Source: a virus
Virus record (IMG/VR): IMGVR_UViG_3300032893_000100
Location: 1-44,807 of that record
Direction: 5' to 3' (one strand)
Length of the DNA: 44,807 nucleotides
In this document: one piece after another, positions 20,266 to 31,417 of the stretch
Layout of the letters: every line of letters begins with the position of its first letter
How positions within the stretch are numbered: position 1 is the stretch's first letter
Made by a program: the position numbers and the translations under genes
The notes under the pieces: model-generated
Told to the model about the DNA's origin: nothing
Seen by the model: the letters and a program-made list of their open reading frames with translations, nothing else
Databases searched by the model: none

Positions 20266-20398
20266 GGACGTACTCCGGAGGCTCTTTCCAGTGATAGACG
20301 GCAGACAGGCTGACTCCCAGACTACGGGCCAAGTCTTCGAACGTCATGCCGGTAGGCAACAAATTCTTATCCAAAATAGCGACCTGCAAAATTTGCAT
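20132..20398 (-). CDS. HTH protein 1, candidate regulator
   Basis: An 88-residue protein. The region FEDLARSLGVSLSAVYHWKE is a clear Cro/C1-type helix-turn-helix, followed by PPEYVHAYLRQYLASHPEAY. The last 45 residues overlap the metallopeptidase start by 134 bases. The ATG (20398) lies inside operator site 2 with GGGGG only two bases away, so translation may be inefficient or start downstream (20347). Related in pattern to HTH protein 2 just upstream. Self-regulation through the overlapping site is likely but inferred. Confidence 0.6.
   Translation of the reverse strand: MQILQVAILDKNLLPTGMTFEDLARSLGVSLSAVYHWKEPPEYVHAYLRQYLASHPEAYEPVRSGGVDCDEPEGIREGTQVSGSGQAG
20382..20398 (-). promoter_or_regulatory. 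Operator-like site 2, over the HTH gene start
   Basis: On the minus strand the bases read ATGCAAATTTTGCAGGT. Its core TGCAAA-x-TTTGCA (20385-20397) has perfect arms and is the most symmetrical of four copies in the window. It covers the start codon of HTH protein 1, a good place for autorepression. Confidence 0.6.
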
Positions 20399-27545: not shown

Positions 27546-27573
27546 TTGACAGTGTGGTGTGCATGCTTATAAG
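27546..27573 (+). promoter_or_regulatory. Strong sigma-70 promoter with palindrome over its -10
   Basis: TTGACA (perfect) and TATAAG (five of six) are separated by 16 bases. The -10 lies in the centre of the 26-bp palindrome at 27557-27582. The direction is plus, toward the DUF5710 antisense strand and the replication genes at 28415. This is the best consensus promoter in the window. Confidence 0.65.
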
Positions 27574-27582
27574 CATGCACAC
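27557..27582. repeat. 26-bp perfect palindrome
   Basis: GTGTGCATGCTTA is followed by its exact reverse complement with no spacer. A perfect dyad of this length is unlikely by chance and points to an operator, a replication-initiator site or a hairpin in RNA. Confidence 0.85.
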
Positions 27583-27828
27583 ATCATCCTACCGAAAACC
27601 ATGAGTGTTCCCCGCAAAATCTAGGCAAATTGCGTTTAAGCCTATCGCGTAGCGTTTATCCAGACGCTCACGGTTGGTAGCCGTGATGGGGGAGCTAGGG
27701 GTTTATTCCTTCCCACCTTTTCAATCATCGCTTATCGCCGCAGGCGCGACACCTGTACGGCTAGGTCAGGGGTGAACAGACCCGCTTAGGCTTTCTTGCT
27801 TACGCGCTTGCCCTTCGCGCGGCAAGCG

Positions 27829-28017
27829 TTAAACCTTCACAACTACGAACTGCGCTCCATCGGAGCATTCCAACAAGCTCGGGTCAATCCACCTGAGAAA
27901 CGGCTTCATGTCTTCGACGTTCTCGATGTACCACAATTTACGGGCCGGATTCCATTTAGCTCCCAGCCGTCTTGCTTCGTCCTTTTCTGAGAAAGGAACT
28001 TGTAAGAATGTAATCAT
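27829..28017 (-). CDS. DUF5710-like protein (62 residues)
   Basis: MITFLQVPFSEKDEARRLGA followed by KWNPARKLWYIENVEDMKPF matches the DUF5710 pattern (VPF.EKD.AK.LGA.WN...K.WY.......F), a small domain found on plasmids and phages, often fused to primases or relaxases. Stand-alone function is unknown. It is the only minus-strand gene in the control region. Its Shine-Dalgarno (GAGGG) lies inside a stem of the structured leader, so translation may be controlled. The stop overlaps a hairpin (27806-27831). Confidence 0.75.
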   Translation of the reverse strand: MITFLQVPFSEKDEARRLGAKWNPARKLWYIENVEDMKPFLRWIDPSLLECSDGAQFVVVKV

Positions 28018-28145: not shown

Positions 28146-28346
28146 ACAAAAAACGGCCCTCAGCAAAGAGGGCCGGAATAGTCGCAAAGGGTAGGGGCGA
28201 CTGAGAGTGCTAAGGGGGGACACTCAGGGCGTCTGCGTGGACACCTTGGGGAAGGTAGAGCATCCCCTCTTAGCACCCCTCACGGGAACCGAGCGAGGGA
28301 CCGTGAGGGGTATCGGATACCGCTACTGACGGAGCGAAGCGCCGAT
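28146..28346 (-). ncRNA. Candidate structured small RNA, about 200 nt
   Basis: It lies between an extended -10 (28353-28361) and a good terminator (28148-28175) on the minus strand, with no reading frame. Stems visible in DNA include CCCCTCACGG/CCGTGAGGGG (10 bp), a closing stem pairing 28264-28275 with 28208-28219 (about 11 bp), ACCTT-GGGG-AAGGT, GTCGC/GCGAC and GTATC-G-GATAC. Such density of perfect stems implies a folded RNA. It resembles no RNA family I can name. Transcription is inferred. Confidence 0.55.
28148..28175 (-). terminator. Rho-independent terminator of the candidate RNA
   Basis: On the minus strand CGGCCCTC and GAGGGCCG form an eight-base-pair stem with loop TTTGCT, followed by six T. 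There is no minus-strand gene upstream, so its substrate should be a non-coding transcript. Confidence 0.8.
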
Positions 28347-28352
28347 GACTAA

Positions 28353-28361
28353 ATTCTACCA
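28353..28361 (-). promoter_or_regulatory. Extended -10 promoter for the candidate RNA
   Basis: On the minus strand the bases read TGGTAGAAT: TGn plus TAGAAT (five of six). Operator site 4 lies immediately upstream, in the spacer and -35 region. No good -35 is seen, which is common with extended -10 promoters. Confidence 0.5.
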
Positions 28362-28380
28362 CATGCAGAATTTGCAGGTG
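28361..28380 (+). promoter_or_regulatory. Operator-like site 4, before the replication genes
   Basis: ACATGCAGAATTTGCAGGTG contains the full motif, core TGCAGAATTTGCA at 28364-28376. It lies between the minus-strand promoter of the candidate RNA and the helicase gene (38 bases to its ATG), so it could control both directions. Confidence 0.6.
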
Positions 28381-28414
28381 TACACTTGGTTGCTCGTTAC
28401 AAAGGGGAAGAACG

Positions 28415-29311
28415 ATGATTGAAGTCACTACGCCTACACAATATGCAGAGGAAATAGGAAAGCTCTACAACGAAGGGCTACCAAGCGGGGACGGAACAGG
28501 ATGGGCAAGCTTGGACGAACTGTACACCGTCGCGGTCCACTACTGGACCATCATCACTGGCATTCCGTCTCACGGTAAGTCAACGTGGATGGATAACCTG
28601 ATGCTGAATTTGATCCGCCAAGGCTGGAAATTCGTCGTCTACAGTCCTGAGAACCAGCCCCCGGCCTTGCATATGGCAGGGCTTGTAGAAAAGGCGCTAC
28701 GCCGCCCGTTTCGCGACGGCTACCACAACCGGCTGACACCGCCTGATCTGGCCCGCGTACTCTCCCATCTCGAAAACTCCATACGAATCCTCGCGCTGGA
28801 TGCCGACTCCCATGTCTTCCCGGCGCTCGGCGACATCATGGACGTAGCCCATGAAATTATCAATGAGATATGGCCTATCAATAAAGTAGGCCTATTAATC
28901 GACCCGTGGAACGAACTGGATCATTCCCCCATCGCGGGAATGAACGAAACCCAAATGACCAACTACGAACTGATGCACTTTCGCCATTGGGTGAGGCGTC
29001 ACAACGTACACGGCTTCGTCGTCGCGCATCCGCAGAAGCCGCAGCGTGGCAGGGATGGCGACTTGCGCCCGGTCGGGCTCTACGATATCAACGGCTCGGC
29101 CGCGTACTTCAATAAGTGCGACCACGGCATCATTGTGCGACGCAGAGAAGACAATGTGACTGAGATTGACGTAGAGAAGTGTAGATTCAAACATTTGGGT
29201 AAGAAAGGCAACACATTCTTACATTTCAATTTCGGTACTGGTACGTATGAATACAACATTGACCGAGAACAACGTTACAGACGAAACGATCAAGATGGTG
29301 ATCCGTTCTGA
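28415..29311 (+). CDS. DnaB-like replicative helicase
   Basis: A 298-residue protein with GGGGAAG before the ATG. It is a RecA-fold, DnaB/Twinkle-type core: a lead segment GTGWASLDELYTVAVHYWTI, Walker A GIPSHGKST (residues 49-57), VGLLIDPWNELDH as Walker B, and FVVAHPQKPQR as the sensor region. GSAAYFNKCDHGIIVRRRED and the CRFKHLGKKG end are also typical. There is no primase domain, so it is shorter than T7 gp4. It should unwind phage DNA and recruit the host replisome. Confidence 0.88.
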   Translation: MIEVTTPTQYAEEIGKLYNEGLPSGDGTGWASLDELYTVAVHYWTIITGIPSHGKSTWMDNLMLNLIRQGWKFVVYSPENQPPALHMAGLVEKALRRPFRDGYHNRLTPPDLARVLSHLENSIRILALDADSHVFPALGDIMDVAHEIINEIWPINKVGLLIDPWNELDHSPIAGMNETQMTNYELMHFRHWVRRHNVHGFVVAHPQKPQRGRDGDLRPVGLYDINGSAAYFNKCDHGIIVRRREDNVTEIDVEKCRFKHLGKKGNTFLHFNFGTGTYEYNIDREQRYRRNDQDGDPF

Positions 29312-29666
29312 TGCAACAAGAAAAAAACTTCACGAACTACTTGACTCAATTTGTGAAGGGTCTATAGTAACCATCACTGGCCCGCGCGCTTCCGACGAAC
29401 TGACGGCAAGGCTACATTGTGCGATCCGCGCCGTCTCGAAACAGGTCGTCTGGGCGGGCCAATACTTAGGGGAAGACGACTGGAAACGGCTTCTCACTGC
29501 TGCGCTCTACGGCCAACGGGTACTCCCATCTCCGGATGGCAAAGGCTTCGTTGTCCTAGACAAACGCACGTCAACGATGAGCGGCGCGCAGAAATGGAAT
29601 CTGTTGGAGTACATCTATTCATGGGGCGCTGAAAGAGGCGTGAATTTTGAGGAGGAAGCTATGTGA
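29247..29666 (+). CDS. ninB: NinB-like recombination protein
   Basis: A 139-residue protein overlapping the helicase end by 65 bases. The region RASDELTARLHCAIRAVSKQ, VVWAGQYLGEDDWKRLLTAA, GFVVLDKRTSTMSGAQKWNL and GAERGVNFEEEAM matches lambda NinB (Orf) closely in order and key residues (VxWxGxxLxxxxWKxxxTAA; GFVVLxxxTSxM; GxERGVxxxxE). NinB binds single-stranded DNA and SSB and replaces RecFOR in phage recombination. The exact start is uncertain. Confidence 0.85.
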   Translation: MNTTLTENNVTDETIKMVIRSDATRKKLHELLDSICEGSIVTITGPRASDELTARLHCAIRAVSKQVVWAGQYLGEDDWKRLLTAALYGQRVLPSPDGKGFVVLDKRTSTMSGAQKWNLLEYIYSWGAERGVNFEEEAM

Positions 29667-31417
29667 CCAATCAAGAACTTATTGAGTTCTACAAGAAATA
29701 CATGCTGGATATGGGATACGACAAAAATCCCGAATATCTCATGTATCTTGATAAGAATGGCGCGACTCTCGAATTTCGGAAAGCCGCGCGAAAACTGCAA
29801 AGGGAAATCTATGTGACTACTGATAACGACGACGTACAAAACTTAAAGGACAGAATCTGGGAGCTTGGGTATGACAAAGAGCCTGAGAAGATGAAGAATC
29901 TGTTGAATAGCAAAAACAGCGATTTGCGGGAAACCGCGAAACAAGTGCAAAGGGAAATAGACGAAATGGAAAAGCAAAAGGGTAAGACGCTGGATGAAGC
30001 GGCAGAGCCGATCATCAACGCGGAAATCGTGAAGACCGGCGACAAGCTGATTGTCCCGGAAGGTGTGTCGCTGCGCCAAGCGCGCGACCTGATCGAACGG
30101 CGCATGTCCTACGAAGAAGAAGAGGTCAGCCTCTCCGAATCGTTCGACGTGTTCCCGTGGGACGGCGCGCATGCCTTCGACAAGGTGCTGACGGCGGTCT
30201 ACGGCTGGACTCCCGCAGAAGCGCAAAAATCGTTCTGGGGCGATATTCCGCCCAAGATGATCGCAATCGACACCGGCCCACACACCAAGGCAATGGTCCC
30301 GTGGGGCAATTTCTCGTTGCCGAACGTGGAAGGCACCCTACATACGGGCGTGGCCGGGAAAGAAGGGCGACTCGCCTTCCAGCTTTCGGCAAAAGTGAAG
30401 CGCGTTTCGCAGCATGTAGTCGAAAAACTCTTCGCCCAAGTGCGCACGTATCTCAAGACCGGCAGCATCTACCGTGGCAAGGCAATCCGGATGCGTTTCC
30501 TCGATGACGATGGCGACGTGCTGCAAATGCCGGAACCGAAGTTCATGGTTACCGACGATATCGACCCGTCGCAACTGGTGTACTCGCGTGTCGTGCAGGC
30601 TTCTATCGACACGAACCTGTTCACGCCGATCCAACGCGTTCGCGAACTGAAAGCGAACGGCATTCCGATCAAGCGTGGCGTCCTTCTCGGCGGCGCGTAT
30701 GGTTGCGGCAAGACGCTTGCGGCCCGCGCGGCGAGCAAGTACGCGGTGGACAACGGCGTGACATTCCTGTACGTCACCCGCGCCGACGAACTTTCTCACG
30801 CCATCGCGTTCGCCCGGCAGTATCAAGACCCGGCCTGCGTGATCTTCTGCGAAGACATCGACCGGGTAATGGACGGCGATCGTTCCGTGGCAATGGACGA
30901 CATCCTGAACATCATCGACGGCATCGACAGCAAGAACAGTGCGCTTATCGTCGTCCTGACGACGAACAATCTGGAAGGCATCCACCCGGCCATGCTGCGC
31001 CCCGGTCGTCTGGATTCCGTGATCGAAGTGAAAGCACCGGACGCGGAAGCGGTGGAAAAGCTGCTGCGCTACTACGGTGGCTCGGCCATCGCCGAAACGG
31101 AAGACCTGAGCGGCGTTGCCGCGCTTCTGGATGGGGAAATCCCGGCAGTCGTCGCCGAAGTCGTGCAACGCGCGAAATTGTCGCAACTGCGGCTGAACCC
31201 GCCCGGCGTGGCGGTCACGCGTCTGACGGCGGAAGCGCTCAAAGTCGCGGCGCAGACCATGACGGCGCAACTGGAATTGCTGGCTATCAACCAGCTTGGC
31301 AAGCCGGAACCGCCCGCTCTCACGGTCGCACTGCAAGAAGCCGTCCGGGCAGCAATCGAACCCGAACTGGCCGACCTGAAAGACCAACTGGCCGACCTGA
31401 AGGAATACGTCTCCTAA
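29663..31417 (+). CDS. AAA+ ATPase, FtsH/Cdc48-like
   Basis: It starts at GTG with GGAGG eight bases upstream, giving 584 residues. Two related ~45-residue helical repeats open the protein (FYKKYMLDMGYDKNPEYLMY; LKDRIWELGYDKEPEKMKNL). A middle domain of unknown type follows (about 110-320). The AAA+ module has Walker A LGGAYGCGKTLAA (about 342-354), Walker B VIFCEDIDRVM, a sensor-1 LTTNNLEGI and the RPGRLD box with arginines. A C-terminal coiled coil ends the protein (ADLKDQLADLKEYVS). No HExxH protease is attached. It probably remodels a protein or complex using ATP. Its partner is unknown. Confidence 0.85.
   Translation: MTNQELIEFYKKYMLDMGYDKNPEYLMYLDKNGATLEFRKAARKLQREIYVTTDNDDVQNLKDRIWELGYDKEPEKMKNLLNSKNSDLRETAKQVQREIDEMEKQKGKTLDEAAEPIINAEIVKTGDKLIVPEGVSLRQARDLIERRMSYEEEEVSLSESFDVFPWDGAHAFDKVLTAVYGWTPAEAQKSFWGDIPPKMIAIDTGPHTKAMVPWGNFSLPNVEGTLHTGVAGKEGRLAFQLSAKVKRVSQHVVEKLFAQVRTYLKTGSIYRGKAIRMRFLDDDGDVLQMPEPKFMVTDDIDPSQLVYSRVVQASIDTNLFTPIQRVRELKANGIPIKRGVLLGGAYGCGKTLAARAASKYAVDNGVTFLYVTRADELSHAIAFARQYQDPACVIFCEDIDRVMDGDRSVAMDDILNIIDGIDSKNSALIVVLTTNNLEGIHPAMLRPGRLDSVIEVKAPDAEAVEKLLRYYGGSAIAETEDLSGVAALLDGEIPAVVAEVVQRAKLSQLRLNPPGVAVTRLTAEALKVAAQTMTAQLELLAINQLGKPEPPALTVALQEAVRAAIEPELADLKDQLADLKEYVS

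Follow-up and report, generated by a model that had tools for sequence, protein, structure and literature searches.

Few phage small RNAs have been worked out beyond a handful of model phages. PreS of lambda and VpdS of VP882 are phage-encoded small RNAs that act in trans and have a role in lytic growth (review PMC12197685); they are ~50-90 nt long, are bound by Hfq and, during development, target mRNAs of the host or of the phage. The short RNAs sar (P22), OOP (lambda) and c4 (P1/P7) are found near developmental control regions and pair with a specific phage mRNA. Among bacterial RNAs, Rfam family RF02278 comprises the 'double-hairpin RNAs' ncS03/05/27/62 of Burkholderia cenocepacia, which carry CU-rich unpaired stretches, and its RNAs have been called toxic because they inhibited the growth of E. 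coli (PMC5688073). Another RNA of B. cenocepacia, ncS35, is 166 nt long, with four hairpins, a strongly negative z-score, an intrinsic terminator and no Rfam match (PMC5760752).

Here we describe a predicted small RNA gene, sRNA1, in a 44.8-kb virus record from a soil phage (IMGVR_UViG_3300032893_000100); 'the window' in what follows is the whole stretch that was analysed, 44,807 nucleotides. Like PreS and VpdS, sRNA1 is a phage-encoded small RNA, although at ~200 nt it is longer than either. With sar, OOP and c4 it shares a position near a developmental control region, but no comparable complementarity was found for it. It resembles RF02278 in having CU-rich unpaired stretches and, at its 3′ end, a hairpin followed by a terminator hairpin, and RF02278 members or close look-alikes sit in its slot in two related phages (L008 and L009); unlike RF02278 it is ~3 times longer, scores 16.6 bits and does not contain the UCUCCU stretch found in L008 and L009. 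The likeness to ncS35, which is encoded on a host chromosome, is one of style only.

The sequence argues that sRNA1 (28346-28148, minus strand; transcription predicted) is a real gene for a phage small RNA, of a kind already known. Its novelty lies in the sequence family. The original prediction of a new phage small RNA therefore stands for the family, which belongs to no accepted Rfam family, and not for the kind, since phage small RNAs were already known.

The predicted small RNA gene and its control signals

The locus (28360-28148, minus strand) consists of an extended -10, a structured stretch of ~200 nt and a terminator, with no convincing gene. As in phage small RNA genes generally, a promoter and a terminator of its own enclose a non-coding structured stretch. 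The extended -10, TG-G-TAGAAT, was read from the sequence at 28360-28353, with the G before the hexamer at 28359. Direct reading of the minus strand upstream of it revealed no recognisable -35 element, which is why the promoter is missing from the list produced by a generic sigma-70 scan. We infer both ends of the predicted ~199-nt RNA (28346-28148), with transcription starting near 28346. The intrinsic terminator is a stem-loop at 28175-28154 with 8 pairs, 7 of them G-C, followed by a run of T6 at 28153-28148. No ORF of at least 50 aa lies wholly inside the predicted transcript. There is a 17-codon ATG frame, MLYLPQGVHADALSVPP, but the SD-like AAGAGGGG touches its ATG, too close for normal initiation, so translation of the frame is unlikely. 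The first description of the region, as a gene-free minus-strand stretch between an extended -10 and a strong terminator, is thus confirmed.

Directly upstream of the -10 lies TGCAGAATTTGCAG (28364-28377, plus strand), the operator site that had been proposed for this promoter. It falls between sRNA1 and a divergent primase/helicase-type gene (28415-29311, plus strand; PHROG 239 DNA primase/helicase), the two having the operator region in common. The motif family is enriched in the window, with 23 copies when up to 3 mismatches are allowed, where 7.3 would be expected, and the motif also occurs upstream of the lysis cassette (27408) and of the structural genes (6090). The copy beside sRNA1 is kept as TGTAGATTTTGCAG in L003, the contig with the sole full-length relative of sRNA1 in the collections searched (IMGVR 3300032782_000029; L003/L007), and as CTGCAGATTCTGCAAG in L004. 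The motif is likely a phage repressor site; co-regulation of sRNA1 with replication is probable and, although the timing is something we infer, the gene is probably switched on together with the DNA-replication gene. A further copy, at 20385, is overlapped by the first ATG of a small HTH protein (20398-20132, minus strand), which has weak Cro/YdaS-type matches and is a candidate repressor of the regulon.

A search for DNA similarity to phages and plasmids gave none. The portal protein encoded in the window shares 57% identity with the one in MW202512, a podovirus genome of 44 kb that came from a spring. The small RNA families found in relatives of the window lead us to suspect a host among the Burkholderiaceae.

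Fold and family assignment

The region 28361-28146 folds with a minimum free energy of -94 kcal/mol (z=-5.8 against dinucleotide shuffles); the z-score of the predicted transcript is -6.9, falling in size to -6.0 when its terminator is removed. The fold of the opposite strand is stable too (z -5.6). The fold of sRNA1 (28346-28150) includes a 5-bp stem with an inner stem of 5-6 bp. The other minus-strand elements are an 11-bp hairpin, ACCCCTCACGG/CCGTGAGGGGT (28275-28311); a long stem, GCTAAGaGGGGATGCTC/GAGTGTCCCCcCTTAGC (28209-28274), of 16 bp with one mismatch, inside which lie the CU-rich loop CUACCUUCCCC and a hairpin of 6 bp; and a 6-bp hairpin, AGTCGC/GCGACT (28180-28202), with the C-rich 11-nt loop CCCUACCCUUU. 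Multiple stems, one of them enclosing a hairpin, had been noted before and are found here, but the sizes given for them need correction: the hairpin has 11 and not 10 bp, and the long stem 16 bp (one mismatch) and not about 11. C and U make up 79% of the unpaired bases of sRNA1 against 50% of the paired bases (p=3e-5), a bias that is reversed on the opposite strand.

A search of Rfam with sRNA1 gave nothing at gathering thresholds and nothing credible at relaxed thresholds, and neither a tRNA nor a tmRNA was found in the region, in agreement with the earlier statement that, from sequence, it could not be matched to known phage RNAs. Scores lie well short of the curated cut-offs for RF02278, the Betaproteobacteria toxic sRNA (16.6 bits against 50), RF02631 Hrs13 (21.3 against 52) and RF00519 suhB/mmgR (12.4-15.3 against 41). 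The Hrs13 score is at chance level, as the same search gave an unrelated viral microRNA model a higher score. No phage mRNA showed the extended complementarity that is seen with antisense RNAs of the sar, OOP and c4 type. Elsewhere in the window a weak RF02278-like match of 18.9 bits (6187-6124, minus strand) lies in a gap that precedes an operator copy and has a terminator hairpin at its end; this match may be due to chance.

Proposed mode of action

In the reading that we prefer, with a probability of about 0.5, sRNA1 would be an early, operator-controlled, trans-acting small RNA with CU-rich loops that base-pair with ribosome-binding regions rich in G. The observations on which it builds are the promoter, operator and terminator sequences, the structure, the conservation, the CU bias and the small RNAs in the same slot of relatives; its predicted parts are that the RNA is transcribed, at what stage, and that it pairs with a target. 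The RNA would start at the extended -10 next to the operator that it has in common with the divergent replication gene, and because its promoter adjoins that operator it would probably be made early and kept off while the phage repressor is bound. It would end at its own intrinsic terminator and fold as a chain of stable hairpins, with the CU-rich stretches left single-stranded. The loops CUACCUUCCCC and CCCUACCCUUU could then pair in trans with such regions and reduce translation, much as has been proposed for Burkholderia small RNAs that are CU-rich. Targets would most plausibly be host mRNAs, perhaps with some phage early mRNAs among them.

Within the phage genome, the longest perfect complement of sRNA1 is 11 nt, and pairing of its loops to phage gene starts was no better than that of shuffled loops, with no enrichment at gene starts. 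The motif GGGGAAG, complementary to a CU-rich loop of sRNA1, stands just before the start codon in four plus-strand genes (22566, 22778, 24852 and 28404). As a selected target motif it was dropped; overall, loop pairing did no better than shuffles, and L003 lacks two of the four sites.

The RNA might instead act through protein binding or its fold, for example by serving as decoy for an RNA-binding protein of the host, and not by base-pairing. Near-invariance between the window and L003 runs along the entire RNA, stems as well as loops, and the multi-hairpin fold is very stable, both of which favour such a role. We nevertheless think it unlikely: the unpaired bases are biased to C and U, which is the pattern of pairing small RNAs, and no known protein-binding family is matched.

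A second structured RNA and the gene after it

Immediately downstream of sRNA1 on the minus strand is a second structured RNA that the first description had not included, the pk element (28138-28015). It has an extended -10 (TGTTACAGT), a long terminator stem in which one G is bulged, and pairing between its 5′ end and the loop of that stem. It also occurs in L003 (3724-3602), L004 (854-719) and L008 (3066-2941), and the extended -10 reads TGTTACATT in L004 and CGTTACACT in L008. The bulged G is in the AGCGCC strand of the terminator stem (AGCCGCC in L004), and 10 of the 25 pairs of the stem show compensatory changes across the four phages. The 5′ end pairs with the stem loop over 14 bp in the window, 12 bp in L003, 8+8 in L004 and ~8 in L008, with shuffle p-values of <0.0005, 0.0005, 0.003 and 0.077, respectively. 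In three of the four the 5′ strand pairs best with its own partner, while that of L008 pairs better with the L004 loop. The window has almost no linker, so that the two helices may be alternatives that do not coexist, an arrangement that would suit an attenuator. A covariance model of the stem, run over ~1.1 Mb, found the four phages only, and Rfam gave no match for the element. It would be a new RNA family with pseudoknot-like long-range pairing.

An ATG follows the T-run of the pk element immediately in three of the four phages and belongs to a different small gene each time. In the window this is a DUF5710 gene of 62 aa (27829-28017, minus strand; Pfam PF18974, 64.8 bits). A T-run followed by an ATG is not diagnostic by itself, since a search of IMG/VR with the pk-terminator pattern gave mostly ordinary terminators or coding sequence.

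With sRNA1, the pk element and the DUF5710 gene in order on one strand, and the second terminator, that of the pk element, abutting the DUF5710 ATG, sRNA1 could be read as a leader or attenuator, forming the 5′ segment of a longer transcript that runs leftward, with conditional read-through into the pk element and the DUF5710 gene. This is unlikely, because the pk element carries an extended -10 of its own and is present in phages without sRNA1 (L004 and L008), and because the window and L003 have different genes downstream but the same sRNA1.

Conservation and the slot in related phages

The sRNA1 sequence is identical to that in L003 at 196 of 197 positions, as compared with 90% identity for the helicase CDS and 67% for the adjacent pk element. 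The single difference is in a loop; all stems are intact and no pair varies between the two sequences. A partial relative, L002, holds the first 32 nt. In both L003 and L002 the -10 reads TG-C-TAAGAT, which keeps the TGNTARRAT form with changed bases. A covariance model of sRNA1 run over ~1.1 Mb of related loci matched only in L003/L007 and, partly, L002. Exact patterns from three parts of sRNA1 were found in IMG/VR only in the L003 contig, and two exact patterns gave no match in a collection of genomes from 84,980 species.

More distant relatives, with helicases 51-63% identical, carry other, terminator-capped small RNAs in the sRNA1 slot, on the same strand and in the same position. The slot of L008 has an RF02278 match of 42.3 bits (E 4e-7; below the curated cut-off of 50) and a tRNA-Sec-like sequence; that of L009 has a Burkholderia small RNA of the RF02871/RF02278/RF02837 type (38.2/35.9/28 bits, below the curated cut-offs) and a tRNA-Met; and that of L004 has a tRNA-Asp and a short stretch that contains UCUCCU and is capped by a terminator. 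Though sub-threshold, the small RNA matches in L008 and L009 have E-values far from chance. The control search with RF02278 covered 14 standard genomes, only one of which reached an E of 0.01, and 8 less related phages, none of which did. The tRNA-Sec-like sequence of L008 (3375-3271, minus strand; 24.9 bits against a cut-off of 47) has long extra arms and a CCA end and adjoins the RF02278-like small RNA.

The binomial probability of the sRNA1 identity is 3e-8 at the divergence of the helicase gene, and 0.36 at that of the stretch 29480-29750, a coding stretch ~99% identical to L003 in a background of ~90%. The high identity of this stretch suggests a recent exchange, and since it lies nearby, the identity of sRNA1 may likewise reflect recent exchange and not selection. 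Taken further, sRNA1 would be an RNA cassette that was recently picked up or swapped between phages and has no selected function here, a reading that gains from the second 99% stretch and from the tRNA, tRNA-like and host-family small RNA genes in neighbouring slots. We hold it to be quite improbable, given that the block of identity coincides with the transcript, that the promoter drifts yet keeps a working -10 and that all stems are intact. It is very improbable that the region is a DNA element, such as a replication origin or recombination site, with dyads that merely look RNA-like: it does adjoin the helicase gene between divergent transcription units, and both strands fold well, but the promoter and the terminator T-run are strand-specific, the C/U bias is opposite on the two strands, and GC skew does not support an origin, showing no switch at sRNA1 and a cumulative minimum near 22 kb.

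Beyond the preferred reading of sRNA1 as a trans-acting small RNA, we tentatively raise the possibility that the phage devotes 28.0-28.4 kb to small RNAs. A slot under operator control with swapped contents (a unique 200-nt RNA in the window, Burkholderia-type double-hairpin small RNAs in relatives) and the pk element would together form an RNA-based module for host takeover and attenuation. The pk element and the pattern of the slot are more novel leads than sRNA1 itself. A strongly structured, operator-controlled small RNA in a slot that holds Burkholderia-type 'toxic' small RNAs in relatives would suggest that phages acquire and deploy growth-inhibiting small RNAs of their hosts.

Two minor features were noted elsewhere in the window. 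The sequence at 27720-27739 is complementary to the start region of the helicase gene (28404-28423) at 80% over 20 nt, 11 nt of it perfect, and is a possible antisense match, at about the level expected by chance. A gene-free stretch contains a perfect 26-nt palindrome, GTGTGCATGCTTATAAGCATGCACAC, at 27557-27582.
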